A DNA stretch of 35,184 bases, taken from positions 1 through 35,184 of the forward strand of contig QZKW01000078.1 in assembly GCA_003599885.1 (NCBI GenBank), given 5' to 3'. The notes beneath the pieces are model-generated. The model did not search any database. It had not been told where the DNA came from and saw only the letters and a program-made list of their open reading frames with translations. This document shows positions 2,789 through 29,525 of this stretch, in pieces. The DNA is from Desulfobacteraceae bacterium (GTDB lineage: Bacteria; Desulfobacterota; Desulfobacteria; Desulfobacterales; Desulfosalsimonadaceae). How positions within the stretch are numbered: the first letter of the stretch is position 1; each line of letters begins with the position of its first letter. Both the position numbers and the translations under genes were made by a program.

Positions 2789-5278
2789 ATGACCAATTCA
2801 GGAATGCGGGTGGATCTGCACGTTCATTCCAAATCATCCACGCGGCCATCCCAGTGGATCTTGCAGAAAATCGACTGCCCGGAGAGTTTTACATCCCATC
2901 GCAAACTCTATGACATCGCCAAATCGAGAGGCATGGATCTCGTGACCATCACGGACCACAACAATATCGACGGGTGCCTGGAGATCGCCCACTTGCCGGA
3001 CACGTTCATCAGTGAAGAAATCACCGCCTATTTTCCGGAAAACGGGTGCAAGCTGCATGTGCTGGCCCATGATATTAATGAGGCCCAGCATCTGGAAATC
3101 AATTATCTTCGGGAAAACGTCTATGACCTGACGTCGTATCTAAACCAGGAAGCCATATTCCACGTGCTGGCCCACCCCTTGTTTGACTTAAACCACAAGC
3201 TCACCCTGGATTATTTTGAAAAAATGCTGCTGTTGTTTCAAAATTTTGAAATCAACGGTTCCAGGGACGGGTTTCAGAACCAGATTTTAGAGGCGGTTTT
3301 GAAGAATTTGACGCCAGGAGACATGGGGTTACTTGCGGATAAACATCAGATTTTTCCGGAGGGCAGGTGTTGGGAAAAAAACCTGACGGGTGGTTCCGAC
3401 GACCATTCATCGCTCAATATTGCCCGTATGCATACGTTTGTTCCCGATGCGGCCACAAAAGAAGCATTTTTTAAAGGCATCGCCGATGGCCGAGGGTTTG
3501 TGAAGGGCAAGCCTGCCACCCCCAAAACCATGGCCCATAATCTCTATGGCATCGCGTATCAGTTTTATAAATCAAAATTCAAGCTCGACAAATATGTACA
3601 TCAACACACGCTTTTCCAGTTTGTGGACTGCGCATTGACATGCCCGGAGGATGAACGGGGAATTCTGACCCGGCTTCAGGATTATTTGATCGCCAGAAAA
3701 CCTGCGCTGCCTTTTTTAAAATCCGGCTCAGATGATCTGATGGGGCTGATTCAAAAAAAAGCCGGTGAAGCCATCCGTCAGAACACTAATTATCAAAAGA
3801 TGTTCAAAGAAACAAAGGCACATTCCTGGAGAAAAGAAGAGGATTGGTATCGTTTTGTGGGAGAGGTTTCCGAACAGGTAATGAAAACCTTTGCGGATAC
3901 CACTCTTGACAGTCTGGCAAAGGCCCGGTTTTTCAACCTGTTTCAGACCATCGGGTCCGCTGGGTCTGTGTATACCTTGCTGATGCCGTATTTTGTAGCT
4001 TTCCGGTTGTTCACCAAAGACCGTGCGTTCGCTGTGTCCTGCAAAAAACATTTTATCGGTGAAGACGTTCAGCCCGGAGAAAAAAACGGCCATATCGCCA
4101 TTTTCACCGATACCCTGAATGAAACCAACGGGGTAGCCCTGACGCTCCGCATGCAGTTGAAAATTGCCAAAAGCTCCGGAAAACGTCTTTCTGTCATCAC
4201 CTGTGCGCCGGACAGTGAAGTAGAAGGGGCAAACAATTTTACGCCCATCGGCACATTTGAAATTCCGGAATATACCGGCATCAAATTGCATTATCCGCCG
4301 GTGTTGAAAATGCTGGAACATTGCTATGAAAATAATTACACCCATATTCAGACTTCCACACCCGGTCCGGTGGGCCTGGCAGGACTTGCCATCGCCCGGA
4401 TTCTCGACATCCCGGTGGTAGGAACCTATCATACGTCGTTTCCGCAATATGTGGCGGAGCTGACCGGTGATCCGTCCATGGAAGTCATGGCCTGGAAATT
4501 CATGATCTGGTTCTATAATCAAATGGATATCGTGTATGTACCGTCCAATGCCACGGGCGTGGAACTGGCGGAAAAAGGGATTATCCGCTCAAAAATCCGG
4601 CTCTACCCCAGAGGCGTTGATACCCAGCGATTTCATCCGTCTCACCGGAACGGATTCTGGAAAGATCGTTACCAGATCCCGGAAAAGAGCGTGAAATTAC
4701 TTTACGTGGGAAGGATTTCAAAAGAGAAGAACCTGGATGTTCTGGTCCGGGCATTTCAAAAGCTTAACTTGCTGAAACCCAATCTCCATCTGATCGTCGT
4801 TGGAGACGGACCATACCGTAAAGATATGGAATGGGATCTGCAACACACCCGCACCCTATTCACCGGGTCTCTGGAAGGAGACGATCTGGCCAGCGCTTAC
4901 GCGTCAAGCGACCTGTTTGTTTTCCCGTCCGGCACAGACACTTTCGGCAATGTGGTGCTGGAGGCTCAGGCTTCCGGACTGCCGGTGATTGTCACTGACA
5001 AGGGGGGACCCCAGGAAAACCTCATTAGTGGAGAAACCGGACTTATTGTCCAGGTCGGAAGTGACGAAGCCATTGTAGATGCGGTTCTGGAAATCGGGTT
5101 CACACCCTACCTTTTGGCTCGAATGAAAAAAAATGCCAGAAGGTATATGGAAAACCGGTCCTTTGAAGCGGCGTTTGACCGGAGCTGGAAGATGTATCAA
5201 TCGGAACCCTTTACGGGAACGACTGTTGAATCTTTCGGAGACGGGCAGGAAGCCCAGACGTTCCGGTTCGCGTCTTGA
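2789..5278 (+). CDS. PHP-domain metallophosphoesterase fused to a family 4 glycosyltransferase
   Basis: This 829-residue two-domain protein starts at 2789 with GGAG seven bases upstream. The N-terminal ~260 residues are a PHP domain with its metal-binding motifs in order: DLHVHS (9-14), TITDHNN, HVLAHP and GGSDDHSS. From about residue 430 comes a GT-B glycosyltransferase of the GT4 type, with FTDTLNETNGV, the YHTSFP acceptor-side motif, VGRISKEKN, VVGDGP and FPSGTDTFGNVVLEA. The first acid of the EX7E motif is Asp here. The GT domain should transfer a sugar from a nucleotide sugar to a lipid or glycan. The PHP domain could hydrolyse a phosphoester, perhaps a sugar-lipid phosphate. It stands alone but faces an envelope-glycan operon, so an envelope role is inferred. 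Confidence 0.88.
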   Translation: MTNSGMRVDLHVHSKSSTRPSQWILQKIDCPESFTSHRKLYDIAKSRGMDLVTITDHNNIDGCLEIAHLPDTFISEEITAYFPENGCKLHVLAHDINEAQHLEINYLRENVYDLTSYLNQEAIFHVLAHPLFDLNHKLTLDYFEKMLLLFQNFEINGSRDGFQNQILEAVLKNLTPGDMGLLADKHQIFPEGRCWEKNLTGGSDDHSSLNIARMHTFVPDAATKEAFFKGIADGRGFVKGKPATPKTMAHNLYGIAYQFYKSKFKLDKYVHQHTLFQFVDCALTCPEDERGILTRLQDYLIARKPALPFLKSGSDDLMGLIQKKAGEAIRQNTNYQKMFKETKAHSWRKEEDWYRFVGEVSEQVMKTFADTTLDSLAKARFFNLFQTIGSAGSVYTLLMPYFVAFRLFTKDRAFAVSCKKHFIGEDVQPGEKNGHIAIFTDTLNETNGVALTLRMQLKIAKSSGKRLSVITCAPDSEVEGANNFTPIGTFEIPEYTGIKLHYPPVLKMLEHCYENNYTHIQTSTPGPVGLAGLAIARILDIPVVGTYHTSFPQYVAELTGDPSMEVMAWKFMIWFYNQMDIVYVPSNATGVELAEKGIIRSKIRLYPRGVDTQRFHPSHRNGFWKDRYQIPEKSVKLLYVGRISKEKNLDVLVRAFQKLNLLKPNLHLIVVGDGPYRKDMEWDLQHTRTLFTGSLEGDDLASAYASSDLFVFPSGTDTFGNVVLEAQASGLPVIVTDKGGPQENLISGETGLIVQVGSDEAIVDAVLEIGFTPYLLARMKKNARRYMENRSFEAAFDRSWKMYQSEPFTGTTVESFGDGQEAQTFRFAS

Positions 5279-11374: not shown

Positions 11375-12034
11375 CTATGCACTATAAAGTTTCAGCTCCG
11401 GATACAGCTTTTTGGCGCAAGGCGGGCAAATCCCGTGGCTGAACTGGGCTTCCGAGTGCTCTGAAATATAATGCTCGATCTGGTTCCAATATCCCTTGTC
11501 GTCCCGGATTTTCTTGCAGACGGAACAGATGGGAAGTAACCCTTGCAGTGTTTTGATCTGTCCTAATGCCTCCTTCAGTTGACGATTTGCGGCCTCTAAT
11601 TCCAGGGTGTTTTGCCGCTGTTCATCATTCAAGGCGATGAGCAACCTGCGAATGGACACGGTGCCCAGCAGGGCCTTGTCCCTGGTAACGATAATATGGT
11701 CGTAAATTTTTTTCGTCTCCCTTTTCATGGCCACATCAGCCGCCTGGGACAGATTCTCGGTGTGGTCGATGATCATCGGCGACCTGTCCATAATTTTTCC
11801 CACCGAACGGTTATAATACACCGAAAACCCATACCGCTGGCTTAAAACGCGGTCCAGATGCATGCTCATGACGAGTCCCACCGGTTCTGGGCCGTTCAAA
11901 ACCACAACCGCACTTACGGGATCATCGGATTTCAGGATTTCAAAAAGTCTGGATATGGGGGTTTCAGGCGTTGTGGTGTGAGAAAATGTGGCGATACTGC
12001 CGATGGTTATTTGGTTGTTGTTTTCTTCAAACAT
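11375..12034 (-). CDS. CBS-pair protein with coiled coil and C-terminal Cys4 motif
   Basis: The protein (219 residues from the chosen start) carries a CBS pair of the type found in GGDEF proteins (VSAVVVLNGPEPVGLVM, VGKIMDRSPMIIDHTENLSQAADVAM, YDHIIVTRDKALLGTVSIRRLL). A coiled-coil helix (NDEQRQNTLELEAANRQLKEAL) follows, then a C-terminal segment with two CxxC pairs (CSVCKKIRDDKGYW and CPPCAKKL) that may bind zinc. This Cys segment also ends some receiver and GGDEF proteins. The open frame extends to a TTG at 12118, but that part lies inside the terminator of the arsC gene. The ATG at 12034 is therefore preferred, with GAGG 11 bases upstream. No enzymatic domain is present, so it is probably an adaptor or nucleotide sensor. 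Its CBS part resembles that of the EAL-GGDEF protein further along. Confidence 0.7.
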   Translation of the reverse strand: MFEENNNQITIGSIATFSHTTTPETPISRLFEILKSDDPVSAVVVLNGPEPVGLVMSMHLDRVLSQRYGFSVYYNRSVGKIMDRSPMIIDHTENLSQAADVAMKRETKKIYDHIIVTRDKALLGTVSIRRLLIALNDEQRQNTLELEAANRQLKEALGQIKTLQGLLPICSVCKKIRDDKGYWNQIEHYISEHSEAQFSHGICPPCAKKLYPELKLYSA

Positions 12035-12084
12035 TGTTTTAACAGCCTCATGCACGGCTTTTTGACCATAAATATGAAAACCAG

Positions 12085-12149
12085 AAAAAAACCGGCGAAA
12101 ATGCATGACATACGACAATAGGGAAGTATATTTGCATTTTTCGCCGGTT
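12085..12149 (-). terminator. Rho-independent terminator after the arsC end of the GAK cluster
   Basis: On the minus strand a 16-17-base arm (12133-12149, containing AACCGGCGAAAAATGCA) pairs with TGCATTTTCGCCGGTT (12090-12105), followed directly by a run of six or more T. The 27-base loop is longer than usual. It lies 37 bp downstream of the arsC stop and covers the upstream part of the frame of the CBS/Cys4 gene, whose translation should begin downstream of it. Confidence 0.7.
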
Positions 12150-12185: not shown

Positions 12186-12647
12186 CTATGAATTTGAACT
12201 GGCTTCTTCTATGCTTTGAACCTCAATTCCTTCTTCCTTCAGCCATTCACAAATTTTCCGGTCGATCTGGTCTCTGACTTTGCGGCAGAAAGCCAGTATC
12301 TCATCCCTTGAACCGACAGCCGCGGCCGGATCTTCAAAAGGCCAGAACACCCGTTGGGCCGCTGAAAAAATATGCGGGCACTGTTTATCAGCATCCGCAC
12401 AGACGATAAACACTTTTTCAAAATGCACCTTGCCGAGAAAGGTTTCCACTCCCTTGGGCCTGGCGTTTGTGAGATCCATGCCGATTTCCTTCATCACCTC
12501 AGCCACAGGAGGAAAAACGGCCTCTTTAGGATTTGCGCCCGCACTGTAGACCTCGAAATGGGAACCCGCGCGTTTCCGCAAAATGAATTCTCCCATCTGG
12601 CTGCGGGCCGTATTGCCGGTACAGAGAAATAAAATTTTTCTGGTCAT
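12186..12647 (-). CDS. arsC: thioredoxin-coupled arsenate reductase / low-molecular-weight phosphatase family
   Basis: This 153-residue protein has the CX5R phosphate loop of low-molecular-weight tyrosine phosphatases (CTGNTARS, Cys9 to Arg15) and WPFEDP with the catalytic aspartate near residue 106. Cys83 and Cys90 (VCADADKQC) match the redox cysteine pair of thioredoxin-dependent arsenate reductases, so reduction of arsenate to arsenite is the likely reaction. A GGAG lies shortly before the ATG at 12647. It sits 27 bp after the amphi-Trp gene, as the last gene of the GAK cassette and ahead of a strong terminator. No arsenite pump or ArsR regulator is in the window, so its presence may reflect phosphate uptake (arsenate entry) or a phosphatase role. 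Confidence 0.85.
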   Translation of the reverse strand: MTRKILFLCTGNTARSQMGEFILRKRAGSHFEVYSAGANPKEAVFPPVAEVMKEIGMDLTNARPKGVETFLGKVHFEKVFIVCADADKQCPHIFSAAQRVFWPFEDPAAAVGSRDEILAFCRKVRDQIDRKICEWLKEEGIEVQSIEEASSNS

Positions 12648-12674
12648 GGTGCGCTCCTATGTTTGTACGATATG

Positions 12675-13064
12675 CTATTGATCGTTTTTTTCGTCTTCAT
12701 CCTCATCTTCACTCTCATCTGTTCCTTCTTCATCTGATTCTGAATCCTGCGTTTCATCATCGGTTTCATCTTCATCCGGTTCAGGAATTACTGGCTCTTC
12801 AGAGGAAATGCGGAGTCCCGGGGTTGCGGGCAGCGCTTCTGCTTCCTGCTTCCAGGAAAGTTCAAGAGACAGTTCGCCCTTTTCTTTTTTGGTTTTGATG
12901 GATAGATCCATTTTCACCATACCCGGCATGTCAAATGATACAAACTGGTCTTCCCGTTCAATAACGACTTTTCCCTGACGGATGCTGTCCCCTAAATTTT
13001 CCAGATAACTAACCAAATCTTCTCTTTTCATACGTTCCTGATGTCTGATTCTGCCTTCTTTCAT
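12675..13064 (-). CDS. amphi-Trp domain protein with acidic tail
   Basis: This 129-residue protein has an amphi-Trp-like domain in its first ~75 residues: a helix (REDLVSYLENLGDSIRQGKV), then amphipathic strands (VIEREDQFVSFDMP, KMDLSIKTKKEKGELSLELSWKQ) ending in the characteristic Trp. The rest is almost entirely Asp, Glu and Ser and is probably disordered. The function of the domain is unknown, but it recurs next to GAK-type genes. The ATG at 13064 has a strong AAGGAGGA. It is cotranscribed between the CofD-like gene and arsC. A second, shorter amphi-Trp protein is encoded at 18052-18327 in the same cluster, so the two may pair. Confidence 0.75.
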   Translation of the reverse strand: MKEGRIRHQERMKREDLVSYLENLGDSIRQGKVVIEREDQFVSFDMPGMVKMDLSIKTKKEKGELSLELSWKQEAEALPATPGLRISSEEPVIPEPDEDETDDETQDSESDEEGTDESEDEDEDEKNDQ

Positions 13065-13116
13065 GGTCTCTTCCTCCTTGATGGTGGTTATATATTATGA
13101 CCGATGCCGGCTGCCG

Positions 13117-14334
13117 TCAGTTGAATGACAGCAGCAGCGCCAAAAGCTGCTGTGCGTCGACCAGGGGGGAACTTTGTGACGTGACCAGGGGATAATCAAT
13201 CAACCGGACGCCCATTTGGTTGATTTTTTTTTCATCGATTGTCCCCGGATAAGCGTCATATTCCCTGTCAACCACAACAAAATTAAGTACATCTTGATTT
13301 TTAATTTCAGCAGAGTTGTCTTTTCTAAGGTGATGGAGCAGTATTTCAACCTGATCCGCGAGATCGCACCCCAGCGTTTCCGGATCAGGCGTTGTGTTCG
13401 GAATGTAAATTTTCGGACAGGTTACACGGCTGATGGCCGTTCCGACGCCTCTGGGCAGCAGATTGGCGATGATGCTGGAATAGAAACTGCCCATGGGATA
13501 GCAGATCAGCTCCGCCTGGCTGATCAGGCCGGTCATTTTTTCCCGGATGGTTACTTCAGATGGCTGAGGGTCGGACTCGCTTTCCGAAAGATAGATCCCG
13601 ACAATGGGATGGGAGATTTTTTTGGTTTCCTTACCGGTGATTCTGTGCTGTCCCGCGACCAGTTCACCGGTTTTGAGAACGGCGACCAGGTGATGGTTTT
13701 TATTCACAGTAGGCCTCACGATGCCCCGGACCTCGACCAGTTTGGAAAAAAGATAAATCACTGGATCAAGCGAACGTCTGCTGGTTAAATAACCGGCGGT
13801 CAAAATCAGGTTCCCGATGCTCGCCCCCTGAAGATCAAAGGATTTCGGCATGAGTTCAATAAATTTATACAGATAATTCCGGATAATTTTGCGCATGGGG
13901 TCCGGTATTTCAGCGACCAGGGGATGTTTTCCGGCAGCCAGATCGTTTAACTCATCCAAAAGGAGGGGCTGTTTTTCCTTCTGGGGAAGACGGTATGAAA
14001 ACAATGTGTAAATTTCCGGATTTCCTTTGAAAGTCTGGTCTGCCAGGGCCATGAGCCGGTTCCGGATATCCCCCACCGCGGGCATGTGGAATGCTTTTCG
14101 GATTTTTGCCGAACTGCCGCCGGAATCAAACGGGGTGATGATGTGGATGGAATTATGGGTATACTGAATCAACAGCTTGCTGGTTTCCCGAAGCGCTGAT
14201 CCGCCGCTGAAAAAAAGGATTCTGGGTCCCAAATCCGGGGCATTCGCAAACCTTGCGAGTTTGACGGGATCAGGCAACCTGACCGATTTGGCGATTTCCA
14301 TCTCAACGATTTTGTTTTTGACGGGATTTTTCAT
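13117..14334 (-). CDS. CofD/YvcK-like protein of the GAK system
   Basis: This 405-residue protein has the conserved glycine motifs of the CofD/YvcK (UPF0052) fold: FFSGGSALRE (41-50), PFDSGGSSAKIRKAF (68-82) and PAVGDIRNRL (85-94), then a later ICYPMGSFYSSIIANLLPRG. CofD transfers a lactyl or phosphoenolpyruvyl phosphate group to Fo to make F420. YvcK relatives bind UDP-sugars and regulate envelope metabolism. The shared fold suggests nucleotide or phosphodiester chemistry, but the substrate is unknown. The length and partner genes fit the 'GAK system CofD-like' group. It starts 12 bp after the kinase gene, with only a weak ribosome binding site, so coupling is likely. No F420 genes are seen. 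Confidence 0.8.
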   Translation of the reverse strand: MKNPVKNKIVEMEIAKSVRLPDPVKLARFANAPDLGPRILFFSGGSALRETSKLLIQYTHNSIHIITPFDSGGSSAKIRKAFHMPAVGDIRNRLMALADQTFKGNPEIYTLFSYRLPQKEKQPLLLDELNDLAAGKHPLVAEIPDPMRKIIRNYLYKFIELMPKSFDLQGASIGNLILTAGYLTSRRSLDPVIYLFSKLVEVRGIVRPTVNKNHHLVAVLKTGELVAGQHRITGKETKKISHPIVGIYLSESESDPQPSEVTIREKMTGLISQAELICYPMGSFYSSIIANLLPRGVGTAISRVTCPKIYIPNTTPDPETLGCDLADQVEILLHHLRKDNSAEIKNQDVLNFVVVDREYDAYPGTIDEKKINQMGVRLIDYPLVTSQSSPLVDAQQLLALLLSFN

Positions 14335-14346
14335 GCTGATTCGTGA

Positions 14347-15456
14347 TCATTCCTTGTTCTCTTTGCCTGCTCCGGTCAAATATTCCCTGCAAAAATGAGC
14401 CGCCTGATCAAAGTCGGCACCGCCGGTGATTTCAAAAACATCGCACCTGGAAAGGATATCGATATAATCTTCAAACGACGGCGATGAGATTTTCCGGCCA
14501 TTCTTCGCATGGTAAAACAGTCCTGTTTCTTTCATAAACGCCGGCAGCAGATCCATACGTTCCGTGATGTTAATTTGATTAAATTTGGCTTTGCCGCCGC
14601 CCTGCTTCCAGTTTAAAATGACCAGGGCATTCATGATCGAATGCAATATGAATCTTCCTTTTCCATAATATTTATGGATGAGGGCGTCGTATTTATGTTC
14701 CAGCATCCAGAGTTCATTGGGTGTCAGTTTTTGATAGATTTGCCTCTGATTTTCCGGAATGATCGCTTCAACGTCCTTATTGTTGAGAATGGTGCCGGGA
14801 TTGATCCGGGGATGTTTCGCAACGCCGTACATATTGATTTTTTCCCCCCACGCCTGCACAATCAACCGGTCATTGCTCGCAAAATCGGCGCCGAGACCCA
14901 GAATCCTGAGCGCAAGAGTGGATTTTCCCATTCCTGAAAAACCCGCCAGGGCAATCCCTCGGCCATTCAATGAAACGCCGGCAGCATGGCCCAGCACGCC
15001 CCCCTGGTTCAGCCGCCATTCGATATATCGGTTATTAATGAAATTAATGACCTGGTTATCATTTTCTATGCACGGGCCAACGGCCAGGTTGTCTCCATTG
15101 CCGAAAATAAACACCATACCCGTCAGACGTTTGCGGACCACACGGCCGCCCTCGATCTCCGCGAATTCCTCTTTGATTTTGTGTTTGCCGGGATCAGGCT
15201 GTTTTTCCGTCAGATCAAGGCAAAGGGACAGCGCCGGCGCTTCATGGGCAGTCACCACGATATCGGGATTCCGTGCATCAATGACAAACGAGCTGAAATA
15301 ATTTCTGAGTTTTTCATCCAACTGTTTTTCATTGGTTTCAATCAGAAACACGCAGTCATCAAAACGCAAAAACAATTCCAGGCCTGTTTTGAATTCCTGG
15401 CGCACGGAAGAGGTCAGGAGATTTCTTGTACTTCTGTCGATGGTTTCAATTTGCAT
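14347..15456 (-). CDS. HprK-related kinase (GAK system kinase B-like)
   Basis: This 369-residue protein has a Walker A loop, GFSGMGKST, at 172-180 followed by LRILGLGADFASNDRLIV. That is the arrangement of HPr kinase/phosphorylase (P-loop, then the acidic/Asp-Arg strand). The ~150 residues before it are poorly conserved. The C-terminal half contains ADFDQAAHFCREYL, and a WMLEHKYD stretch lies between. True HprK phosphorylates Ser46 of HPr. No HPr is encoded here, so the target is probably another cluster product such as an amphi-Trp protein, by inference. AAGGAC precedes the ATG at 15456, which overlaps the end of the ATP-grasp gene by 11 bp. Confidence 0.82.
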   Translation of the reverse strand: MQIETIDRSTRNLLTSSVRQEFKTGLELFLRFDDCVFLIETNEKQLDEKLRNYFSSFVIDARNPDIVVTAHEAPALSLCLDLTEKQPDPGKHKIKEEFAEIEGGRVVRKRLTGMVFIFGNGDNLAVGPCIENDNQVINFINNRYIEWRLNQGGVLGHAAGVSLNGRGIALAGFSGMGKSTLALRILGLGADFASNDRLIVQAWGEKINMYGVAKHPRINPGTILNNKDVEAIIPENQRQIYQKLTPNELWMLEHKYDALIHKYYGKGRFILHSIMNALVILNWKQGGGKAKFNQINITERMDLLPAFMKETGLFYHAKNGRKISSPSFEDYIDILSRCDVFEITGGADFDQAAHFCREYLTGAGKENKE

Positions 15457-16327
15457 TGCTTGTCCTTTTTAAAACATATTCAACCAGTAGTTTCGCCGGA
15501 TCGATTCCCCGGGATTCAAGAATTCCCCGGAAACCACCGAAAGCCGAGACTTCAAATACAAACGGACCTTCCGGGGTAATCGCAATATCGACGCAGGTGA
15601 AATCAAGCCCGAACAAGTCCTGGGCTTTTTTCGCCAGCGCGATGATTTCAGGGGACGGATCAAACGACGCATATTTGCCCCCGGAATGGATGGTGGTATT
15701 CCAGGAATTTTTTTCTTTGCACCGGGCGTAGGTTGTCAGGTATTCACCTCCCAGAAACACGATGCCCAGATCCTGGTTTTCGATATGGATTTTTTTTTGT
15801 ATATAAAGGATGGAATTTTCCTTTTTAAAGTCCAGCAGCGCCTGTCCCGCTCCCGGCCCCCTGTTGACCACCACCATTCCTCTTGCCTTTGAGGTGAACA
15901 AGGGTTTTAAAATCGCTTGTTCGTAACTATCAACAGCAATCAGGGCCTGGTCCAGATTCTCGGTAATGGTGGTGGGCGGCATGGGGATGCCCGCAGCTTT
16001 CAGGGTAACGGTGCAGCTCAGACGGTTCAGCACCCGGATGATCCGAAGGGGGGATGAATAGATTTTTACGCCGCGTATTTCCAGAAAACGCAGCATCTCA
16101 AGCCGGTCCAGCAGGTCCGGGGAATACCGGGCCCCGATCTTTTTCACGATCAGGGCATCAAAAGTGGAAAGATCCGAATCCTGAAACCAGAGAGAGCCGG
16201 TCGCAAGGTCCAGCCGGACCTGGTTCATTTCAACCAGAAGACGTCGGCCCGTCATTTCAGCGGCGGCATCCGCCAGCTTTTCAGAGGACCAGCCGTCTTT
16301 GGTGCCGATTACCGCAATTTTCCGCAT
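15446..16327 (-). CDS. RimK-like ATP-grasp enzyme of the GAK system
   Basis: This 293-residue protein has the ATP-grasp layout: an N-terminal Rossmann-like part (KIAVIGTKDGWSSEKLA), SSPLRIIRVLNRLSCTVTLKAAGIPMPPT (91-119), the ATP-binding ILKPLFTSKARGM (139-151), and a C-terminal metal-binding stretch LDFTCVDIAITPEGPFVFEV (241-260). The usual Asn after the metal-binding Glu (EVN) is Ser here (EVS). ATP-grasp enzymes activate a carboxylate as an acyl phosphate and join it to an amine or thiol. RimK relatives add amino acids to proteins or cofactors. AAAGGAC lies before the ATG at 16327. There is a 70-bp gap from the PhoU-kinase gene. Confidence 0.82.
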   Translation of the reverse strand: MRKIAVIGTKDGWSSEKLADAAAEMTGRRLLVEMNQVRLDLATGSLWFQDSDLSTFDALIVKKIGARYSPDLLDRLEMLRFLEIRGVKIYSSPLRIIRVLNRLSCTVTLKAAGIPMPPTTITENLDQALIAVDSYEQAILKPLFTSKARGMVVVNRGPGAGQALLDFKKENSILYIQKKIHIENQDLGIVFLGGEYLTTYARCKEKNSWNTTIHSGGKYASFDPSPEIIALAKKAQDLFGLDFTCVDIAITPEGPFVFEVSAFGGFRGILESRGIDPAKLLVEYVLKRTSNAN

Positions 16328-16397
16328 GGTATGTCCTTTGTTTTATATATAGAAACGGTTATAATTTAAGTATAATCAATCTATTGAACAAGGTTGT

Positions 16398-18047
16398 TCA
16401 GAAAAAAAAGATGTTTGCCGGCAGTTGAAAATCCGTCCAGGGGCGGCCCTGATGCGCTAAAATTTTTTCCATCAAGAAGTGGGACCGAAGCAGCATTTCC
16501 TTGGAAAAAGCGGTGTTGAATTCAAACCGCGTGGATGTGAAAAACGAACGGGCCAGGGCAAAAGCCATCCGGATGTCAAATGTTCCATCATTATGGCGGC
16601 GCGCAAAATTTCTGGCGAACAGATAAATGTTTTCAATCACATGGTTCAGACGTTCCCTGAGACCCGCATCGAATACCGGCATCCGGAAATTGGAAATCAG
16701 AAAAACCGATACGTCCTTTACATAATCGAAATCCTTGGACCGGTAGAGATCAATAAAATGAATTTTCTGGTTGGAATGATCATAGAGTATGTTGTTGACG
16801 TTGAAATCCCCGTGAATCAGAACCGAGAAGGGCGCCTGGATACAGGATTCGATGATCCCGCATTGTTTTAATAATGCTTCAGTCGAATCAATTTTTTTAT
16901 CCCCAAGCTGTTGCTTCAGGCGGAACGCGCCGGCATGAACCCGCTGGACATCCTCCTTCCGGTCCATAATTTCCTGAATATAATTGGTGTCTGCAGGAAC
17001 AGGGGAGAGGGTGGTTTCCCAGATTTCCATCAAGGTCTGCTGAAGGACAAACAGGGCGTTGTCGAGATAAGGCAGGTCGGATGTCAGGGCCATCTCGTCC
17101 AGGGTGCAGCCGGGGAGGTATTCCACCAGCAGGGAAGCGTTTTCGCCTTCCTCGTGATATCCGTAAACTTTGGCCACAAGGTCTGGAAACAACTGGTTCC
17201 ACCGCTCCAGACTGTCTTTTTCCGCGGATATCTTACGGATAACCCCCTCCTTGAAAATGCTGCCGTATACATCAATCGCATTGTCATTGTTTTCTTTCTG
17301 GCCGACACGCCCGATCCGGCACCCTGACCGGGTTCCCCATATAGACTGGAAATCAATTTCACTGATGGTTTCCTTGATGCCGGATTTGGAAAGCGTGGTC
17401 TCAAGGGCCTGAAACTGCTCGATTTTGATTTTTTCTCCGATAATGCAGAAGATAAGGGCCTCCCCGATATTGAGCAGGGAATCTCCGATACGTTCGATAT
17501 ACCTGAAAATAAATAAAATGGTGATGAGTTCCGGAATGTGAAGGCCTTTCTTGATCTCAAACATGAGCCGGTCGAAATTGGTTTTATACATCTGGTCCAG
17601 AACGAATTCCGTTTTGCAGATAATCAGCGCACCAGTCAGGTTTCCGTCTCCCAGCACCGGAAGAATTTTTGACAGGGCCTTCAGGATCTCCGTCATCATG
17701 GCGTCATAATCATAATTTTGCAGCATCCGGTAGTTTTCCAGATAGCTCATCTGGCGGACGATATTGACGCAAAAATCGGCAATACGTTCCAGGTTGACGG
17801 AGATGGTCTGGATGGAACGGATCCGGTTAATGTCTTTTTTCTGAAGGGATTTTTCTGAATGAATAATGGAAAAGCACTTGTTTTCAATAATGGTTTTGAG
17901 GTTGTCGATGTAATCGTCTTTGGTGATGATGCTCTCGTATAGCTTGCGGGACGGCTGGTTGATGAAATTGACCGTGGAACGGGTCTGATTTTCAACCTCC
18001 ATGGCGATAAATTTTAAATTTTCTTCCAGACCTTCAAATGTAAGCAT
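16398..18047 (-). CDS. PhoU domain fused to an aminoglycoside-phosphotransferase-like kinase
   Basis: This 549-residue protein has two regions. Residues 1 to about 215 are helical with PhoU-type text in two repeats (IRSIQTISVNLERIADFCVNIVRQM and LFIFRYIERIGDSLLNIGEAL). PhoU proteins link phosphate transport (PstSCAB) to histidine-kinase signalling. Residues ~250-520 form an APH-like kinase: LLVEYLPGC at the hinge, LIHGDFNVNNILYD (catalytic Asp and metal Asn, near 412) and HFIDLYRSKD (metal Asp). The fusion suggests a small-molecule kinase or protein kinase governed by phosphate status. It starts only 4 bp after the second amphi-Trp gene with no clear ribosome binding site, so translation is coupled. 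It may be the phosphate-sensing part of the GAK cassette. Confidence 0.85.
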   Translation of the reverse strand: MLTFEGLEENLKFIAMEVENQTRSTVNFINQPSRKLYESIITKDDYIDNLKTIIENKCFSIIHSEKSLQKKDINRIRSIQTISVNLERIADFCVNIVRQMSYLENYRMLQNYDYDAMMTEILKALSKILPVLGDGNLTGALIICKTEFVLDQMYKTNFDRLMFEIKKGLHIPELITILFIFRYIERIGDSLLNIGEALIFCIIGEKIKIEQFQALETTLSKSGIKETISEIDFQSIWGTRSGCRIGRVGQKENNDNAIDVYGSIFKEGVIRKISAEKDSLERWNQLFPDLVAKVYGYHEEGENASLLVEYLPGCTLDEMALTSDLPYLDNALFVLQQTLMEIWETTLSPVPADTNYIQEIMDRKEDVQRVHAGAFRLKQQLGDKKIDSTEALLKQCGIIESCIQAPFSVLIHGDFNVNNILYDHSNQKIHFIDLYRSKDFDYVKDVSVFLISNFRMPVFDAGLRERLNHVIENIYLFARNFARRHNDGTFDIRMAFALARSFFTSTRFEFNTAFSKEMLLRSHFLMEKILAHQGRPWTDFQLPANIFFF

Positions 18048-18051
18048 ATTG

Positions 18052-18327
18052 TTATGAACTGATTTTAATTGTTTTATCGGGAGCTTTGAGTTCTATTTTC
18101 GGATCTTTCCAGGATATCTTGATGCCGAGCTCGTTTTTCACGCCGTCTTTTTTTTTGGCCTTCACGCTGAACCGGACCAGGGCATCGGGATGAAGAATGA
18201 TCTCGTCATTTTCCGAAGACAGAACAATTTTCTTTTTTGCAAATCCCTCCAGAAGGGATTGCAGAAAGGACTGAATGCTGGTGTTGTCCTGAAATGAGTC
18301 AAATTCGAATTTTTGATCGCCGCTCAT
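18052..18327 (-). CDS. small amphi-Trp domain protein
   Basis: This 91-residue protein is essentially one amphi-Trp-like domain. A helix (SIQSFLQSLLEGFAKKKIVLSS) is followed by strands (EIILHPDALVRFSVKAKKKDG, NELGIKISWKDPKIEL) with the marker Trp in SWK. Unlike its paralogue at 12675-13064 it has no acidic tail. An AAGGAG lies eight bases before the ATG at 18327. It immediately precedes the PhoU-kinase gene (4-bp gap). The function of the domain is not known. The size and position suit a small carrier or substrate protein for the cluster's kinase and ATP-grasp enzymes, which is inference. Confidence 0.75.
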   Translation of the reverse strand: MSGDQKFEFDSFQDNTSIQSFLQSLLEGFAKKKIVLSSENDEIILHPDALVRFSVKAKKKDGVKNELGIKISWKDPKIELKAPDKTIKISS

Positions 18328-18396
18328 CGTGTCTCCTTATAATATTATGGTCATATTCTTATTGCTCATCATTCATCAGTCATCATTTCTTTCCTA

Positions 18397-19557
18397 TTAT
18401 CCCAGAAGCCGGTTCCGGTATTCCAGGATGACCCCGGCCTTATCAATGTTTCCGCAAATTAGCTGTTTGCAGACACTGAAATCATTCCAGGCCGGTTGCA
18501 GACCAATTTCCCGGCCTGCTTTCGCCGGGTCCTGAATCCCGGGCGGCTTGATCTTTTCCGACATATGGGTGTCGTCCCCCATGAAAATCAGCAGTTGTTT
18601 CTGGCCGGGACGCCTGTTTTTATTGTTTTCATTTAAAACCGATATAAGAAATTCCGTGTATCTTCTGGATTGGGGATTCCATACTTCATATCCATCCACA
18701 TCATAGTTCGCCAGCAGGATGGGCCAGAACTGCTCTGGATGGGGGATGACGATGCCGGCATTCAGTGATCTGGCTTCCTCAATCACTTCAGCGGTTTCGT
18801 AAAAATACTGGTTTGAGAAATGGCTCTTTACGATCTGTTTAATGGCGGTCAGGTATAGCTGGGCGCGGTTGATCAGGCGGTCCCCGTATACCGGACGGTA
18901 TTCATCGAAAAAATTCCGGATCAGTTTGTTTTTCAGGGCGTCTTCCGGAATATCTCCTGCATGACGGTCCAAAAGGGTTTTTATTTTTTTGACAATAATT
19001 TGAACGAAGTGAACCATACTCTGGCCGGAACCTGTGTCTTCGGCCGCCTTGCTGATCCATTCTTCATTCGGCGAGGTAATGGCATGGATATAGTCAAATA
19101 ATTGGGAAGACCGGTATTTGAATGTATGCCGGAGCATGGATTTAAATACATCCGCATGGGCAAGGTTTTCGTTTTTAAAATGAATAAGCAGTTGAACCTT
19201 CTGGTTAAATCCGCTGGAATAACAATCCACCTCCACGCCGGAGAATTCATTGCAGCTCATAAGGACATTGTGCTGGGTCGGAATCAGCAGCGACTCACAG
19301 GCTCTGGGAAACATTTCGGAAACCCGGCGCAGAATCAATTCCAGGGGAACGGATTCCGGATGCCAGTGAATCCCCAGAAGGGATTTTTCAAGAGGGTAGG
19401 TGGCTGATGGAGATGTGATCCTTTCCTGCTGCTCCGGGTTTAATTCAATGCTGGTGATTCTTGAAAAAATCGCCTCATCGTCTTCAGTGACTTCTTCGGG
19501 GATATTTTCCGGCGCTTTTGAGCCGCCAATTAAATTATTGTTTTCAATCAAATGCAT
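18397..19557 (-). CDS. PHP-like metal-dependent hydrolase, first gene of the GAK-type cassette
   Basis: This protein (386 residues from the ATG at 19557) contains His- and Asp-rich motifs arranged as in PHP/metallohydrolase proteins: LLGIHWHPESVPLELI near residue 60, GIVIPHPEQFWPILLANY, GYEVWNPQSRRYTEF and LIFMGDDTHMSEKIKPPG. The first two-thirds contain a long helical insertion. I did not recognise a closer family. The reaction is likely phosphoester or amide hydrolysis. The open frame extends three codons to a TTG, but the ATG with AAGG ten bases upstream is preferred. It begins the run of eight minus-strand genes that ends with arsC, with a 69-bp gap to the next. Confidence 0.6.
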   Translation of the reverse strand: MHLIENNNLIGGSKAPENIPEEVTEDDEAIFSRITSIELNPEQQERITSPSATYPLEKSLLGIHWHPESVPLELILRRVSEMFPRACESLLIPTQHNVLMSCNEFSGVEVDCYSSGFNQKVQLLIHFKNENLAHADVFKSMLRHTFKYRSSQLFDYIHAITSPNEEWISKAAEDTGSGQSMVHFVQIIVKKIKTLLDRHAGDIPEDALKNKLIRNFFDEYRPVYGDRLINRAQLYLTAIKQIVKSHFSNQYFYETAEVIEEARSLNAGIVIPHPEQFWPILLANYDVDGYEVWNPQSRRYTEFLISVLNENNKNRRPGQKQLLIFMGDDTHMSEKIKPPGIQDPAKAGREIGLQPAWNDFSVCKQLICGNIDKAGVILEYRNRLLG

Positions 19558-19729
19558 ATGTGCCAAGCCTTTTTTCGGGATGTGAAACGGGTGTTAGCCC
19601 TGTAAACTCAGAATGATTCCTGAAAAAATATGACATTATTAAGGAGCACATTCATGACGATTATGTGACATTTTTGTGAATTCATTTGAACTGCCCGAAT
19701 GAATGATAAAATGTTCATTGTCATGATTA

Positions 19730-21574
19730 TCATTGCTGGCGAGTGTCGATATAATACCGGCTCCCCGGCAGGGTCTTGACCTTTTTTTTGACTTCCGACG
19801 CAACGGAAACCAGGTGGCCATATGATTCAAAGCGCCGATTTTCAGAGGTCACCACGGCGATGGAAACCGACAGCAAGGGAAACTGTTCGGTCTGTCCGCT
19901 CCGGTTCCGGCTAATGTAATAACCCTGACCGATGGTTACCGGGTCATGCAATTCCCGTATGCCCCGGTCAAAGTTGCTGATAATGCTGTCGCACAGACAT
20001 TCCACCTCCCCGGCCCTGCATACCGCCACAAAATCATCTCCCCCCACATGGCCCACAAAACCGCCGGTTTCGTCCCACCGTGCCACGGCATCTTTGATCA
20101 GGCCGGCCAGAAACCGGATGGCCTGGTCGCCTTTAAAAAAACCGAAATTGTCGTTGAAGGGTTTAAAATGGTCCAGGTCGATATACAATACGGCGAAAAT
20201 CCGGTTCTGGTTCAGGTGGCGGACGATCTGTTCCTCAATGAGGTTGTTGCCCGGCAGGCCGGTAAGGGGGTTGGCCTGCATGGCGAGCTGGATTTTCTGT
20301 TCGGTGATGCCGTGAAGGAGCTGGTGGATTTCCACAATCCCGGCATAAGCCCCGTTTTTTACGACGATTACCGCATCGTAAACCTCTTTTTGACTGCGTT
20401 TTAAAACCGTGCGCGCCACTTCCTCAAGCGGCGTATTCGATTCAAAAACCAATGCCCTTTCCATAATTCTCTGAACCGGCTTGTTGGAAAACAATGCATA
20501 TCCGTTGGGCTGCCCGAGCTTGTAATACATGGTGTTCTTTTGAATAATGCCCACCGGCCGGTTTCCTTCCACCACCGGCAGGGCGGATATCTTTTCCTCA
20601 CCGCTAAAATTCTCCATAACTGACTTCAGAATGCTTGAGACATCAATGGGCCGGGCAGGATTCATCAGTCCGCCGATTGCATTGGCGCGGAGGCTTGTCT
20701 CCACCGGGTCCGACATTTCCCGGACTTTCTTTTCGATCCACGATTGGACGGCCGGTGCACACGCCTGAAGCGTCTCGGAAGGCCGACACAGATAAAAGCC
20801 CTGGGCCAGATCGATTTTCATGTTCATTACCGTATCCAGTTCATCGGCGGATTCGATGCCTTCGGCAACCACAAGGGAACTCATTTTCCGGCAAAAAGAT
20901 ACAATGGCGTCCACAAGCATTTGTTTTTTGGTGCTTTTGTGGATGTCGGTGATTAAAAACCGGTCAATTTTGATGATGTTCGGCTGTATCTGTGACAGCA
21001 GTTTCAGCCGGGTAAACCCCGCACCCAAATCATCCAGGGCGATTTTAAAGCCTTTCCGGCGGAAAAACTCCACGGTTTCCACAAGCCTGTCGTAGTCCTG
21101 AATATAAAACCGTTCCGTTAATTCAATAATGACCCGGTCCCGCATGCGGATCAATTCTTCATACAGATACGGGATATGGGTATGGGGATCGGCCATCATC
21201 AATACAGAGGGACAGACATTCAACGCCACAGGGCATTCGGGATTAAACTTCCCCATCGCCTCTAACGCCCTTTCACGGCAGCATTTTTCAAGAGAGGCGG
21301 TCAGATTGTGTTTACGCGCGCTCTGAAAAAGCGCTTCAATATTTTCAAAGCGGGTGTCCCCTTTGATTCGGCATAATGCTTCATAAGCGTATACCTTTCC
21401 GGTCATCAGATCGATAATCGGTTGGAACACGGTGGTTAAGCGGTCATTTTCGATGATATCGATCAATTCATCCCGGAGCTGGTCAAAGGAAGAAACGGGA
21501 CGGAAGTGAATGACTGGATTCTGATGGTGGCCTGTTATTTGCGGTGAGACGGGTGATTGCGGAAGTATCGTCAT
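19730..21574 (-). CDS. EAL-CBS-GGDEF cyclic-di-GMP signalling protein
   Basis: This 614-residue protein has three parts. EAL domain (about 30-290): YAYEALCRI, VALNVCPS, IIELTERF, ALDDLGAGF, IKIDRFLI and VVAEGIES are all present, so the metal-binding residues of an active c-di-GMP phosphodiesterase appear intact. CBS pair (about 310-440). C-terminal GGDEF domain (about 450-605): VLYIDLDHFKPFND and HVGGDDFVAVC, where the signature reads GGDDF instead of GGDEF, so cyclase activity is uncertain. There is no membrane segment. AAGGAG precedes the ATG at 21574. It lies upstream of the PHP-like gene with a 172-bp gap and may have its own promoter, divergent from the Cache-HAMP gene. The CBS pair probably senses adenine nucleotides. 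Confidence 0.92.
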   Translation of the reverse strand: MTILPQSPVSPQITGHHQNPVIHFRPVSSFDQLRDELIDIIENDRLTTVFQPIIDLMTGKVYAYEALCRIKGDTRFENIEALFQSARKHNLTASLEKCCRERALEAMGKFNPECPVALNVCPSVLMMADPHTHIPYLYEELIRMRDRVIIELTERFYIQDYDRLVETVEFFRRKGFKIALDDLGAGFTRLKLLSQIQPNIIKIDRFLITDIHKSTKKQMLVDAIVSFCRKMSSLVVAEGIESADELDTVMNMKIDLAQGFYLCRPSETLQACAPAVQSWIEKKVREMSDPVETSLRANAIGGLMNPARPIDVSSILKSVMENFSGEEKISALPVVEGNRPVGIIQKNTMYYKLGQPNGYALFSNKPVQRIMERALVFESNTPLEEVARTVLKRSQKEVYDAVIVVKNGAYAGIVEIHQLLHGITEQKIQLAMQANPLTGLPGNNLIEEQIVRHLNQNRIFAVLYIDLDHFKPFNDNFGFFKGDQAIRFLAGLIKDAVARWDETGGFVGHVGGDDFVAVCRAGEVECLCDSIISNFDRGIRELHDPVTIGQGYYISRNRSGQTEQFPLLSVSIAVVTSENRRFESYGHLVSVASEVKKKVKTLPGSRYYIDTRQQ

Positions 21575-22762: not shown

Positions 22763-22802
22763 CGCATAATAAAAATAATTTTTTAAAAGGAGGAAGTTGA
22801 GA

Positions 22803-23912
22803 ATGAAAAGGTTTGTTTATTTGAAACGCAGGTTAATGATTGTGCCCATGGGATTGCTTATGGCAATGCTCATGGTGTCTGTTCCGGCACTCGCCGCAGA
22901 AATTCTGGTTACCGGGTCCACAACGGTCCAACCCATTGCTGAGAAAGTCGCCAAGGCATACATGGAATCCCATCGGGGTACGACAGTCAGCGTTTCCGGC
23001 GGCGGTTCAGGAAACGGCATCAAAGCCATTATCGACGGCACTGCAGATATCGGAAATGCCTCGCGGTTTATTAAAGATCAGGAACTCGCCATGGCATGTG
23101 GCAAAGGGGTTTATCCTGTCCCTTTCCGCATCGCCTATGATTGTATTATCCCGGTGGTTCATCCGGGAAACCCTGTAAAAAATCTGACCATCGAACAACT
23201 GAAAGATATTTATCTCGGGAAAATCTCTAACTGGTCGGCGGTCGGTGGCAGCGATCAGCCCATCCTGCTTATTTCCAGGGATACGTCTTCCGGAACTTAC
23301 GAGGTGTGGGAAGATAAGGTCATGAAAAAAGAAGACGTTTCTCCAGGAGTGCAACTGGAGGATTCAAATGAGTCGGTAATAAAGGCGGTCGCGTCCGAAA
23401 AAGGGGCCATCGGATACATCGGCCTCGGGTATCTTGAAAATTCGGTAAAATCCGTGAGCGTCAATACCATCAAAGGCTCGGAAACCACGACCTTAAACGG
23501 CACCTATCCCATCAGCCGTCCCCTGTTCATGTTTACAAAAGGCTGGCCGTCCGGTGAATTGCTGGATTTCCTGAACTATGTGCTGGACCCCGCAAAGGGA
23601 CAGAAGCTTGTCAAATCGTCGGGTTTTGTGGCGTTAACCAGCGCCGGGGCATCCCCGCAAATGCCGGCTCCCGAAATCCAGGCGGGTGGAATCGATGATG
23701 CGCCATTTGAGTCTCCGTCCAGCATCCGGACCGCCCAGTTGTATTTGAATGCGCTGACTTATGACGCCGGGCCGGTGGACGGTATCAAAGGGCAAAAAAC
23801 CATCAACGCCGTCATGGCCTTTCAGAATGCCTGCGGTCTGCCGGTGGATGGACAGATATCCGGTCAATTGATGGACGTGTTGTCAGACCGGTACCGGAAA
23901 TTGAAAAAGTAA
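22803..23912 (+). CDS. PstS-like phosphate-binding protein with C-terminal peptidoglycan-binding domain
   Basis: This 369-residue exported protein has a signal peptide (MKRF to about VPALAAE). The PstS-type ligand-binding fold follows: TGSTTVQPIAEKVAKAY, VSGGGSGNGIKAIIDGTADIGNASR, NLTIEQLKDIYLGKISNWSAVGG and RDTSSGTYEVWED, all phosphate-contact motifs of the family. After about residue 300 comes a PG_binding_1 domain (IRTAQLYLNALTYDAGPVDGIKGQKTINAVMAFQNACGLPVDG). The protein should bind phosphate in the periplasm while attached to the cell wall. The ATG at 22803 follows AAGGAGG by nine bases. A TTG two codons earlier is less likely. No PstCAB permease follows, so it may act as a sensor or scavenger with the adjacent Cache-HAMP protein. 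Confidence 0.88.
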   Translation: MKRFVYLKRRLMIVPMGLLMAMLMVSVPALAAEILVTGSTTVQPIAEKVAKAYMESHRGTTVSVSGGGSGNGIKAIIDGTADIGNASRFIKDQELAMACGKGVYPVPFRIAYDCIIPVVHPGNPVKNLTIEQLKDIYLGKISNWSAVGGSDQPILLISRDTSSGTYEVWEDKVMKKEDVSPGVQLEDSNESVIKAVASEKGAIGYIGLGYLENSVKSVSVNTIKGSETTTLNGTYPISRPLFMFTKGWPSGELLDFLNYVLDPAKGQKLVKSSGFVALTSAGASPQMPAPEIQAGGIDDAPFESPSSIRTAQLYLNALTYDAGPVDGIKGQKTINAVMAFQNACGLPVDGQISGQLMDVLSDRYRKLKK

Positions 23913-28753: not shown

Positions 28754-29431
28754 CACAGTACTCAAACCTATGCAGCACTGATGAAAAATGATCTAGGTCG
28801 GTCGGTTGTGGTTGAATTTCCTTATCGAAAAGCGTGGATGAATCACTGGTTGGCCATTCCTCACATGACCATTGCGAGTGATGCCATGGCCGGTGTTGGT
28901 GAAGATGGTAAATTGCTGCCATGGGATGCGGATTGGTCGGAATACCGTGGTCATCCGCGTACGTCTGGATCGCGCGGAACTTGTTTTAGAATGGGGCGTG
29001 AACAGGGTATTCCACTGATGTTTACGATTGCACAGGCAAGTTACTGGCCAGCCAAACACTTAGGTGATTCAGGCCTTGAATCCATGAAAGAACGTGGTCG
29101 CCTGCAAAAAGGGAAAGTTGCCGATATTACCATTTTTGATCCTAAAACGATTACAGATAATTCAGGATTTAAAGTCGGTCAGCACGGTATTTCATCAACA
29201 GGTATCCCTTATGTTATTGTTAACGGCACGATTGTGGTGAAGGACAGCAAGGTGCTTCGCGTGAAACCAGGTCAGGAAATTCGCTTTCCAGTCGAACCCA
29301 AAGGCAAATTTAAGCCGATCGAAGTGGGCGGCTGGCTGAACAAACACACGATTGGTCTAAACCCTGATCTGCTTGAGCACCTGCATGATGACACTGGTAT
29401 GGGTGTGATTCTTGACGGCGACAAAAAATAA
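28754..29431 (+). pseudogene. N-terminally truncated N-acyl-D-amino-acid deacylase-like amidohydrolase
   Basis: The frame matches the C-terminal half of the complete deacylase at 32195-33850. WMNHWLAIPHMTIASDAM corresponds to VDWLKMPGVAIGSDGM, YRGHPRTSGSRGTCFRMGREQGIPLM to NTHPRTSGSFGAVLRLSRENNIPLM, and RLQKGKVADITIFDP to RMQEGMVADITIFDP. The frame is open from a stop at 28751. The first ATG is at 28781 and has no ribosome binding site. The N-terminal HxH metal site and signal peptide are missing, so it cannot be an active enzyme by itself. It retains an extra C-terminal tail (HLHDDTGMGVILDGDKK) that the full copy lacks, so it came from a different paralogue, not a recent duplication. It begins the hydrolase island. 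Confidence 0.75.
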
Positions 29432-29525
29432 CTTTGCATTCAGTCATGGTTCATTAATGGAAAACAGGATGAAAAAGATAGTCAGGCTCAAATTAGATAA
29501 ACGCACTATTCAAAGGAGAAGACCC

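Follow-up and report, generated by a model that had tools for sequence, protein, structure and literature searches.

The 35,184-nucleotide stretch of Desulfobacteraceae bacterium DNA analysed here (contig QZKW01000078.1, assembly GCA_003599885.1; referred to at its full length as the window) carries a cassette of eight open reading frames (ORFs) on its minus strand, at 12186-19566, which sequence comparison identifies as a typical copy of a widespread predicted system, the GAK system. In several lineages such cassettes sit directly behind phosphate-import genes, which suggests a part in phosphate handling or storage. Our tentative explanation, to which we give somewhat less than an even chance, is that the cassette forms one conserved system downstream of Pst/PhoU import, which would synthesise, and be able to degrade, a cytoplasmic organic compound whose phosphate serves as a reserve or buffer. 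The gene content and order of the cassettes, the co-occurrence of their genes, the linkage to pst/phoU genes and the intact or altered state of the active-site motifs are direct observations, and the linkage provides a first testable functional direction for families that have been named without a function.

In order of transcription, with neighbouring ORFs spaced -11 to +70 nt apart, the cassette encodes a predicted PHP-type phosphoesterase (18397..19566; exact start, a TTG, uncertain), assigned from motifs and a structural model; the 91-residue amphi-Trp protein 1 (18052..18327; TIGR04354, 67.3 bits against a cut-off of 31); a 549-residue PhoU domain protein fused to an APH/EcKL-type kinase, hereafter the PhoU-kinase (16398..18047; PF01895, APH and EcKL); the RimK/MptN-like GAK ATP-grasp enzyme (15446..16327; TIGR04356, 444.7 bits against 300); HprK-related kinase B, or HprK-B (14347..15456; TIGR04355, 498.6 bits against 200); the YvcK/GlmR-related GAK CofD-like protein (13117..14334; TIGR04357, 547.3 bits against 340); the 129-residue amphi-Trp protein 2, whose tail is acidic (12675..13064; TIGR04354, 64.4 bits against 31); and a low-molecular-weight (LMW) phosphatase or thioredoxin-type ArsC-like protein (12186..12647; PF01451, 56.3 bits). 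The original prediction, made from the DNA alone, had described eight packed minus-strand genes of GAK type. All of these ORFs exist, most of the identities are backed by Pfam or NCBIfam, and the naming of the system is right, the models TIGR04356, TIGR04355, TIGR04357 and TIGR04354 all being far exceeded. The window thus shares with the predicted system (NCBIfam TIGR04354-TIGR04358) its ATP-grasp, HprK-B, CofD-like and amphi-Trp proteins and a recurrent gene order. It differs in that the fifth member, XXXCH (TIGR04358), has no match in the window's genome, although the same search is positive in 42 of 395 genomes; this absence is what is unusual in the window's copy. A limited literature search on the names and model numbers of the GAK families turned up no paper dedicated to them, and the main text of PMC12389409 contains neither XXXCH nor GAK.

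Which genes make up the core of the system? Locus profiles were built from the window cassette and, after removal of duplicates (L071, L129) and of loci with a non-GAK ATP-grasp (L047, L048), they define 108 distinct loci, 85 of them with the ATP-grasp gene and 59 in which over 5 kb of available sequence lies on either side of that gene; the sets are biased towards the window's relatives, and the counts are not estimates of prevalence. Among the 59, amphi-Trp 1, the PhoU-kinase and HprK are each present in 56, the PHP gene in 51, and amphi-Trp 2 and XXXCH in 39 each, while the 57 with a CofD-like gene are an inflated figure, because many loci were found through that gene. The commonest order (17/59) is XXXCH, PHP, amphi-Trp 1, PhoU-kinase, ATP-grasp, HprK-B, CofD-like, amphi-Trp 2; the window's order, without XXXCH, occurs in seven, itself counted. 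The three loci that lack the PhoU-kinase belong to one genus, in which all three genomes have a second locus with XXXCH, PHP, amphi-Trp 1, the PhoU-kinase and a second HprK. The PhoU-kinase is therefore as constant as the genes that bear the GAK name, and its description in the original prediction as an addition peculiar to this version was wrong. The PHP protein is likewise a core gene of the cassette. Neither of these two has a GAK name.

The wider survey gives the same association. In a set of 395 Desulfobacterota genomes the ATP-grasp enzyme exceeds its cut-off in 24, HprK-B does so in 24, and 23 have both; the unmatched HprK-B genome (G078) has an ATP-grasp gene truncated at a contig end, and in G118, which passes for ATP-grasp, no HprK-B match was found. 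Fusion into a single ORF joins HprK to the CofD-like sequence in L134 and the ATP-grasp sequence to HprK in L046, a locus that starts at the edge of its contig. A lack of conserved co-occurrence had been named beforehand as the outcome that would argue against one system; the comparison across loci has been run, and co-occurrence is nearly complete. That unrelated genes are packed together here by chance is already refuted by the conservation of gene order across Desulfobacterota, Zixibacteria and Eisenbacteria, with split forms and fusions besides, and we give this explanation practically no weight.

The PhoU-kinase contains two PhoU repeats (PF01895, 75.9 bits against 23.5) and matches APH (29.5 bits) and EcKL (30.1 bits) above their cut-offs; its profile finds PhoU 4q25 (E 8e-22) and APH 4feu (1e-4) in the PDB. 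In motif counts, which cover the ORFs called by the locus profiles, fragments included, with the same loci dropped, its HGDxNxxN motif is kept in 95 of 100. PhoU itself shares the two repeats, but the cassette protein is fused to a kinase domain and reaches only 92.4 bits against the full-length PhoU model (TIGR02135, phoU_full; cut-off 130.25). The 389-residue product of the first gene has no Pfam or NCBIfam match at E <= 0.1 and none in a PDB sequence profile search. Nevertheless, His67, His69, His99, Glu112, His129, His276, Asp332 and His334 are invariant in 23 aligned sequences, and the PHP metal-ligand motifs (HxH/QHN/E/H/HP/D.H) are kept in 82 to 86 of 87. An AlphaFold2 model (pLDDT 88.8), with a long helical stretch at about residues 132-248, gives as its sole Foldseek matches at E <= 0.001 the PHP phosphoesterases BAD_1165 (3e0f, 3o0f) and RNase AM (9etk), at E about 3e-5 and probability 1.00, with a low TM-score by query of 0.35-0.39. 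The PHP-like assignment made originally is thus borne out by motifs and model matches, though it lies below Pfam and NCBIfam detection, and the first gene is predicted to encode a PHP-type phosphoesterase.

The linkage to phosphate import emerged from an enlarged set, in which 46 stretches, mostly from Desulfovibrionaceae chosen across genera, were added and seven duplicates removed, giving 95 loci with both PhoU-kinase and ATP-grasp; the two stretches from G629 were dropped, seven profiles finding there a CofD-like protein and no other cassette protein. Where at least 1 kb of flank is available, eight of 85 distinct loci have pst/phoU genes on the cassette's own strand no more than 1 kb upstream, none of 85 has them there on the opposite strand, and none of 84 has them at this distance downstream on either strand. 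At 3 kb the corresponding figures are 7/78 upstream on the same strand and 0/78 on the opposite strand, with 0/75 and 1/75 (L045) downstream. In the eight linked loci (L053, L070, L078, L095, L115, L182, L210 and L217) the distances run from -31 to 852 nt, and in each an NCBIfam cut-off is passed: by PstS in L053, by PstA in L070 and by PstB in the other six. In L078, PstS, two permease genes, PstB, PhoU, XXXCH, PHP, amphi-Trp 1, PhoU-kinase, ATP-grasp, HprK-B and CofD-like follow one another on one strand. In L053, from the window's own genus (G333), pstS and two pst permease genes are directly upstream of the cassette.

In the window itself the nearby phosphate gene is of the PstS family only and lies on the other strand (22797..23912, +; TIGR02136, 271.2 bits against 206.6), encoding a phosphate-binding protein with a C-terminal peptidoglycan-binding domain (PF01471). 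The original prediction had pointed to this gene, which is real and stands 3.2 kb upstream of the cassette with two genes between; the link to phosphate that it proposed has become stronger than the sequence alone could show, through same-strand upstream pst/phoU genes and a PhoU protein in the core. A hand count of 46 PhoU genes outside the cassettes of the 24 GAK-positive genomes finds three within 11 kb of the ATP-grasp gene (G089, G130, G333), where gene number and genome size would lead one to expect about 0.25; the choice of 11 kb was made after the data had been seen. Two gammaproteobacterial loci, L135 and L146, also contain genes for PstS, PstC/A, PhoU, a phosphatase and NUDIX proteins, and L146 a Na/Pi cotransporter. 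No PHP gene is present in these two or in two alphaproteobacterial plasmid loci, L149 and L150; a metallophosphoesterase and histidine phosphatases stand in its place (by Pfam on representatives), and three of the four (L135, L146, L150) have NUDIX genes.

How might such a system work? What we infer are the biochemical steps, the nature of the product and the part played by the amphi-Trp proteins. The PhoU half of the fusion would read phosphate or the status of Pst and control the kinase joined to it. The compound may be built jointly by this kinase, the HprK-type kinase, the ATP-grasp enzyme and, as a handler of nucleotides, the YvcK/CofD-type protein. The PHP phosphoesterase would free phosphate from it, a task that could fall to the histidine phosphatases and metallophosphoesterase in the four loci of Gamma- and Alphaproteobacteria that lack PHP, NUDIX genes being present in three of these. 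The amphi-Trp and XXXCH proteins could then serve as scaffold, carrier or granule-surface proteins.

Large phosphorus granules, called polyphosphate, are described in Desulfovibrio gigas after Jones and Chambers 1975 (PMC5134017, PMC9239181). Phosphorus-containing electron-dense granules of D. alaskensis G20 disappear under phosphate limitation, and the authors regard them as polyphosphate (PMC5193443); the main text of that paper mentions neither ppk nor polyphosphate kinase. The genome G591, which appears to be that of D. gigas, carries on one strand PstB, PhoU, XXXCH, PHP, amphi-Trp 1, PhoU-kinase, ATP-grasp, HprK-B and CofD-like genes (L182), with PstB and PhoU over the NCBIfam cut-offs. 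PPK1 was not found in this genome or in 14 further Desulfovibrionaceae, one of the 15 (G592) being 87% complete. Nor were PPK1, PPK2 or CHAD found in 22 GAK-positive Desulfobacterota, in searches whose controls were positive; these are 22 of the 24, the least complete, G042 and G193, being left aside. Canonical polyphosphate had come into consideration because three gammaproteobacterial loci have a CHAD gene next to them (confirmed with Pfam for two), and it is an unlikely substrate in GAK-positive Desulfobacterota since PPK1, PPK2 and CHAD are missing from those 22. The cassette may be analogous in function to the polyphosphate systems (PPK1/PPK2 and the CHAD phosins) as a phosphate store, but in those 22 genomes it occurs without them. 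It offers candidate genes for phosphate storage in sulfate reducers that lack PPK1 and PPK2, a problem raised by the granules seen in D. gigas and D. alaskensis G20. Hensgens et al. are said to have reported in 1996 that the D. gigas granule material is glucose pentakis(diphosphate) and not inorganic polyphosphate. The more specific proposal that GAK is a PPK-independent storage pathway that makes and packages the phosphorus granules of sulfate reducers, this reported compound in the case of D. gigas, with amphi-Trp and XXXCH as granule proteins, we consider unlikely.

Several points weigh against a phosphate reserve. Most loci (77 of 85) have no pst/phoU gene within 1 kb, and the adjacency in the others could reflect co-regulation only. 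A scan for Pho boxes with an E. coli consensus gives two of 66 cassette starts at p<0.05, the window included, which is below chance, but says little either way, since the pstS controls are weak too. The lack of PPK1, PPK2 and CHAD is not a marker of GAK, because 34 GAK-negative genomes are nearly as bare, with PPK1 and CHAD in G014 alone and PPK2 in none. The presence of GAK in D. gigas is in itself weak support, because 217 of 288 Desulfovibrionaceae genomes have a CofD-like gene over the cut-off. This gene also stands alone in eight loci with at least 8 kb of flank on both sides (L123, L128, L136, L139, L140, L141, L148 and L151, judged at the locus only). Finally, a step of amino-acid ligation is as likely, because the ATP-grasp enzyme is nearest to glutamate ligases, not to phosphotransferases.

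The ATP-grasp enzyme scores 152.9 bits against the MptN model (cut-off 350), and its profile, which includes two non-GAK rows, matches the RimK family in the PDB at E about 1e-34. The match to RimK/MptN/LysX ligases is full-length, but in place of E-x-N, the metal-binding motif of RimK-like enzymes, the GAK enzymes have E-V-S in 104 of 104 and EVN in none; the two non-GAK relatives in the alignment (A3) do have EVN. HprK-B shares with HPr kinase/phosphorylase a P-loop, the preceding histidine and the DR region, and matches the structures 2qmh and 1jb1 (E 1e-5). This match is confined to the P-loop region, however, the score against TIGR00679 is 21.5 bits with a cut-off of 240, and the ADDR of HPr kinase/phosphorylase becomes SNDR or TNDR in 96 of 100, so that its Asp-Asp pair is not retained.

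HprK and RimK belong to families that modify proteins, and these genes could accordingly form a relay in which amphi-Trp proteins, with XXXCH, are phosphorylated by the HprK-type kinase and extended with amino acids by the RimK-type enzyme, under PhoU control, so as to regulate something other than a phosphate store. The original prediction had proposed that kinase and ligase modify the amphi-Trp proteins in this way; we regard such a relay as possible but rather doubtful. The strong RimK match and the presence of amphi-Trp 1 at 56 of 59 loci are consistent with it, as is the acidic tail of the window's amphi-Trp 2 (58 residues, net charge -24). Among 61 amphi-Trp 2 proteins, however, the tails, with a median of 68 residues and at least 30 in 48 proteins, are clearly acidic in 21, clearly basic in seven and neutral or short in the others. 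They vary too much to be one shared ligase target, and an acidic tail as a family-wide RimK-type C-terminal substrate was rejected on the finding that tails may be acidic, K/P/A-rich or short. Nine loci of Desulfonatronospira, Desulfonatronovibrio and Desulfonatronum, three of them among the 59, have the ATP-grasp gene without HprK at the locus, yet eight keep an amphi-Trp gene there, the ninth being cut short. Moreover, the kinase fused to PhoU is of the APH type, and APH-type kinases mostly act on small molecules. The K/P/A-rich tails resemble, in composition only, those of the granule proteins AlgP and PhaF (PMC9239181).

The nearest structures to the ATP-grasp enzyme include the lysine-biosynthesis enzymes 1uc8, 1uc9 and 5k2m. 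In that pathway LysW is a carrier protein that works with the ATP-grasp enzyme LysX and a kinase. By analogy, an amphi-Trp protein might carry a small molecule that is built upon it and whose end product is not a phosphate store, and the cassette does place small conserved proteins beside an ATP-grasp enzyme and kinases. Such a pathway would leave the pst/phoU linkage unexplained, and the annotated neighbour clusters, looked through without a systematic search, showed no biosynthetic partner of the usual kind; we judge it improbable. The amphi-Trp model (protein 1, pLDDT 84.9) consists of one helix and four strands, a fold with no PDB structure match at E <= 0.001. Designed Ig-like proteins are the best PDB profile matches of amphi-Trp and are not taken as homologues.

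The CofD-like protein belongs to the PF01933 fold family and yet is not closest to CofD: apart from its GAK model, the one NCBIfam match is to YvcK (TIGR01826; 127.5 bits, below the cut-off of 196). The PDB matches 2ppv, 2o2z and 2hzb are found at E 3e-34 to 6e-32; the five matches at E <= 0.01 comprise 2hzb and 2q7x, which bear the label UPF0052, 2o2z, which is a GlmR (PMC10128056), and two structures without a name, 2ppv and 2p0y. This affinity raises the prospect that the flux of sugar nucleotides to the envelope is matched to phosphate supply by the YvcK/GlmR-like and HprK-like proteins, much as GlmR does for UDP-GlcNAc. The Listeria GlmR makes UDP-GlcNAc (PMC10128056), and at 14 loci, of which two are the same locus in duplicate, the cassette has in its vicinity a gene for a glycosyltransferase that matches PHP weakly. 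The region FDSGGSS, found in 133 of 140 CofD-like proteins, aligns with the DDGGSS-type stretches of YvcK-like structures, DDGGSS being the form in B. halodurans YvcK. In Listeria GlmR the changes D40A, D41A and N198A together reduce uridyltransferase activity about 100-fold (PMC10128056, section 9). Of the two Asp residues, the first is kept in the GAK proteins and the second is Ser in the same 133 of 140. This substitution speaks against the envelope explanation, which we judge improbable. Taken across the ATP-grasp, HprK-B and CofD-like families, the substitutions suggest a changed chemistry or a partly non-catalytic role, and would predict reactions unlike those of RimK, HPr kinase and GlmR.

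Relatives of the CofD-like protein are widely scattered. An alignment scan of named genome contigs gives at least 573, and the best 80 of these include Desulfobacterota, Gammaproteobacteria, Zixibacteria, Eisenbacteria and a myxobacterium. Seventeen plasmid records match, with an annotated GAK CofD-like protein in four of the ten listed. The two alphaproteobacterial plasmids of L149 and L150 carry a variant cassette, while an Alloyangia plasmid (L148) and a Catenovulum plasmid have the CofD-like gene without the remainder; in L148 its annotated neighbours include NUDIX, PhoX phosphatase, inositol monophosphatase and Ugp-type transporter genes. A search of plasmids for amphi-Trp 1 gave no match and is insensitive, because two of the CofD-matching plasmids hold annotated amphi-Trp genes. 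Pattern scans of viral contigs found no ATP-grasp or CofD-like relative. L042 and L043 are cassettes with no CofD-like gene in the stretch; G297, from which L043 comes, also carries L067, another cassette, and this one includes the gene.

Other variants concern the accessory proteins. The XXXCH protein combines an amphi-Trp-like N-terminus with the XXXCH C-terminus (TIGR04358), is encoded upstream of PHP or downstream of CofD (L045, L049, L054, L078 and others), and occurs also in genomes below the ATP-grasp cut-off. Four tandem amphi-Trp genes follow the CofD-like gene in L076 (1823-3207), and the window's genome has a third amphi-Trp-like stretch with an in-frame TAA (L041, G000:C61). Three gammaproteobacterial variants (L107, L135, L146) include NUDIX and CHAD-type proteins; L135 and L146 have a gene of histidine phosphatase-NUDIX type, two more of histidine-phosphatase type, a metallophosphoesterase and a PhoU protein, the last in L146 being a fusion of PhoU with an LMW phosphatase.

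The final gene of the window's cassette had been called ArsC. Its membership of the LMW phosphatase/ArsC-like family stands (PF01451), and it has a CX5R motif and a C-x6-C pair, but it is not an arsC equivalog (TIGR02691, 99.6 bits against 174.3). This family is found in the stretches of 12 loci, the window included, and the gene is an occasional neighbour, not part of the core. The genes that flank the cassette on the same strand both encode CBS-domain proteins, an EAL-CBS-GGDEF protein upstream (19730-21574, -) and a CBS protein downstream (11375-12118, -). Further away on the plus strand are the window's own copy of the recurrent glycosyltransferase gene, at 2789-5275, whose glycosyltransferase-4 product has its weak PHP match at the N-terminus, and, at 29412-30518, a gene for a Beta-lactamase2-family protein (PF13354).

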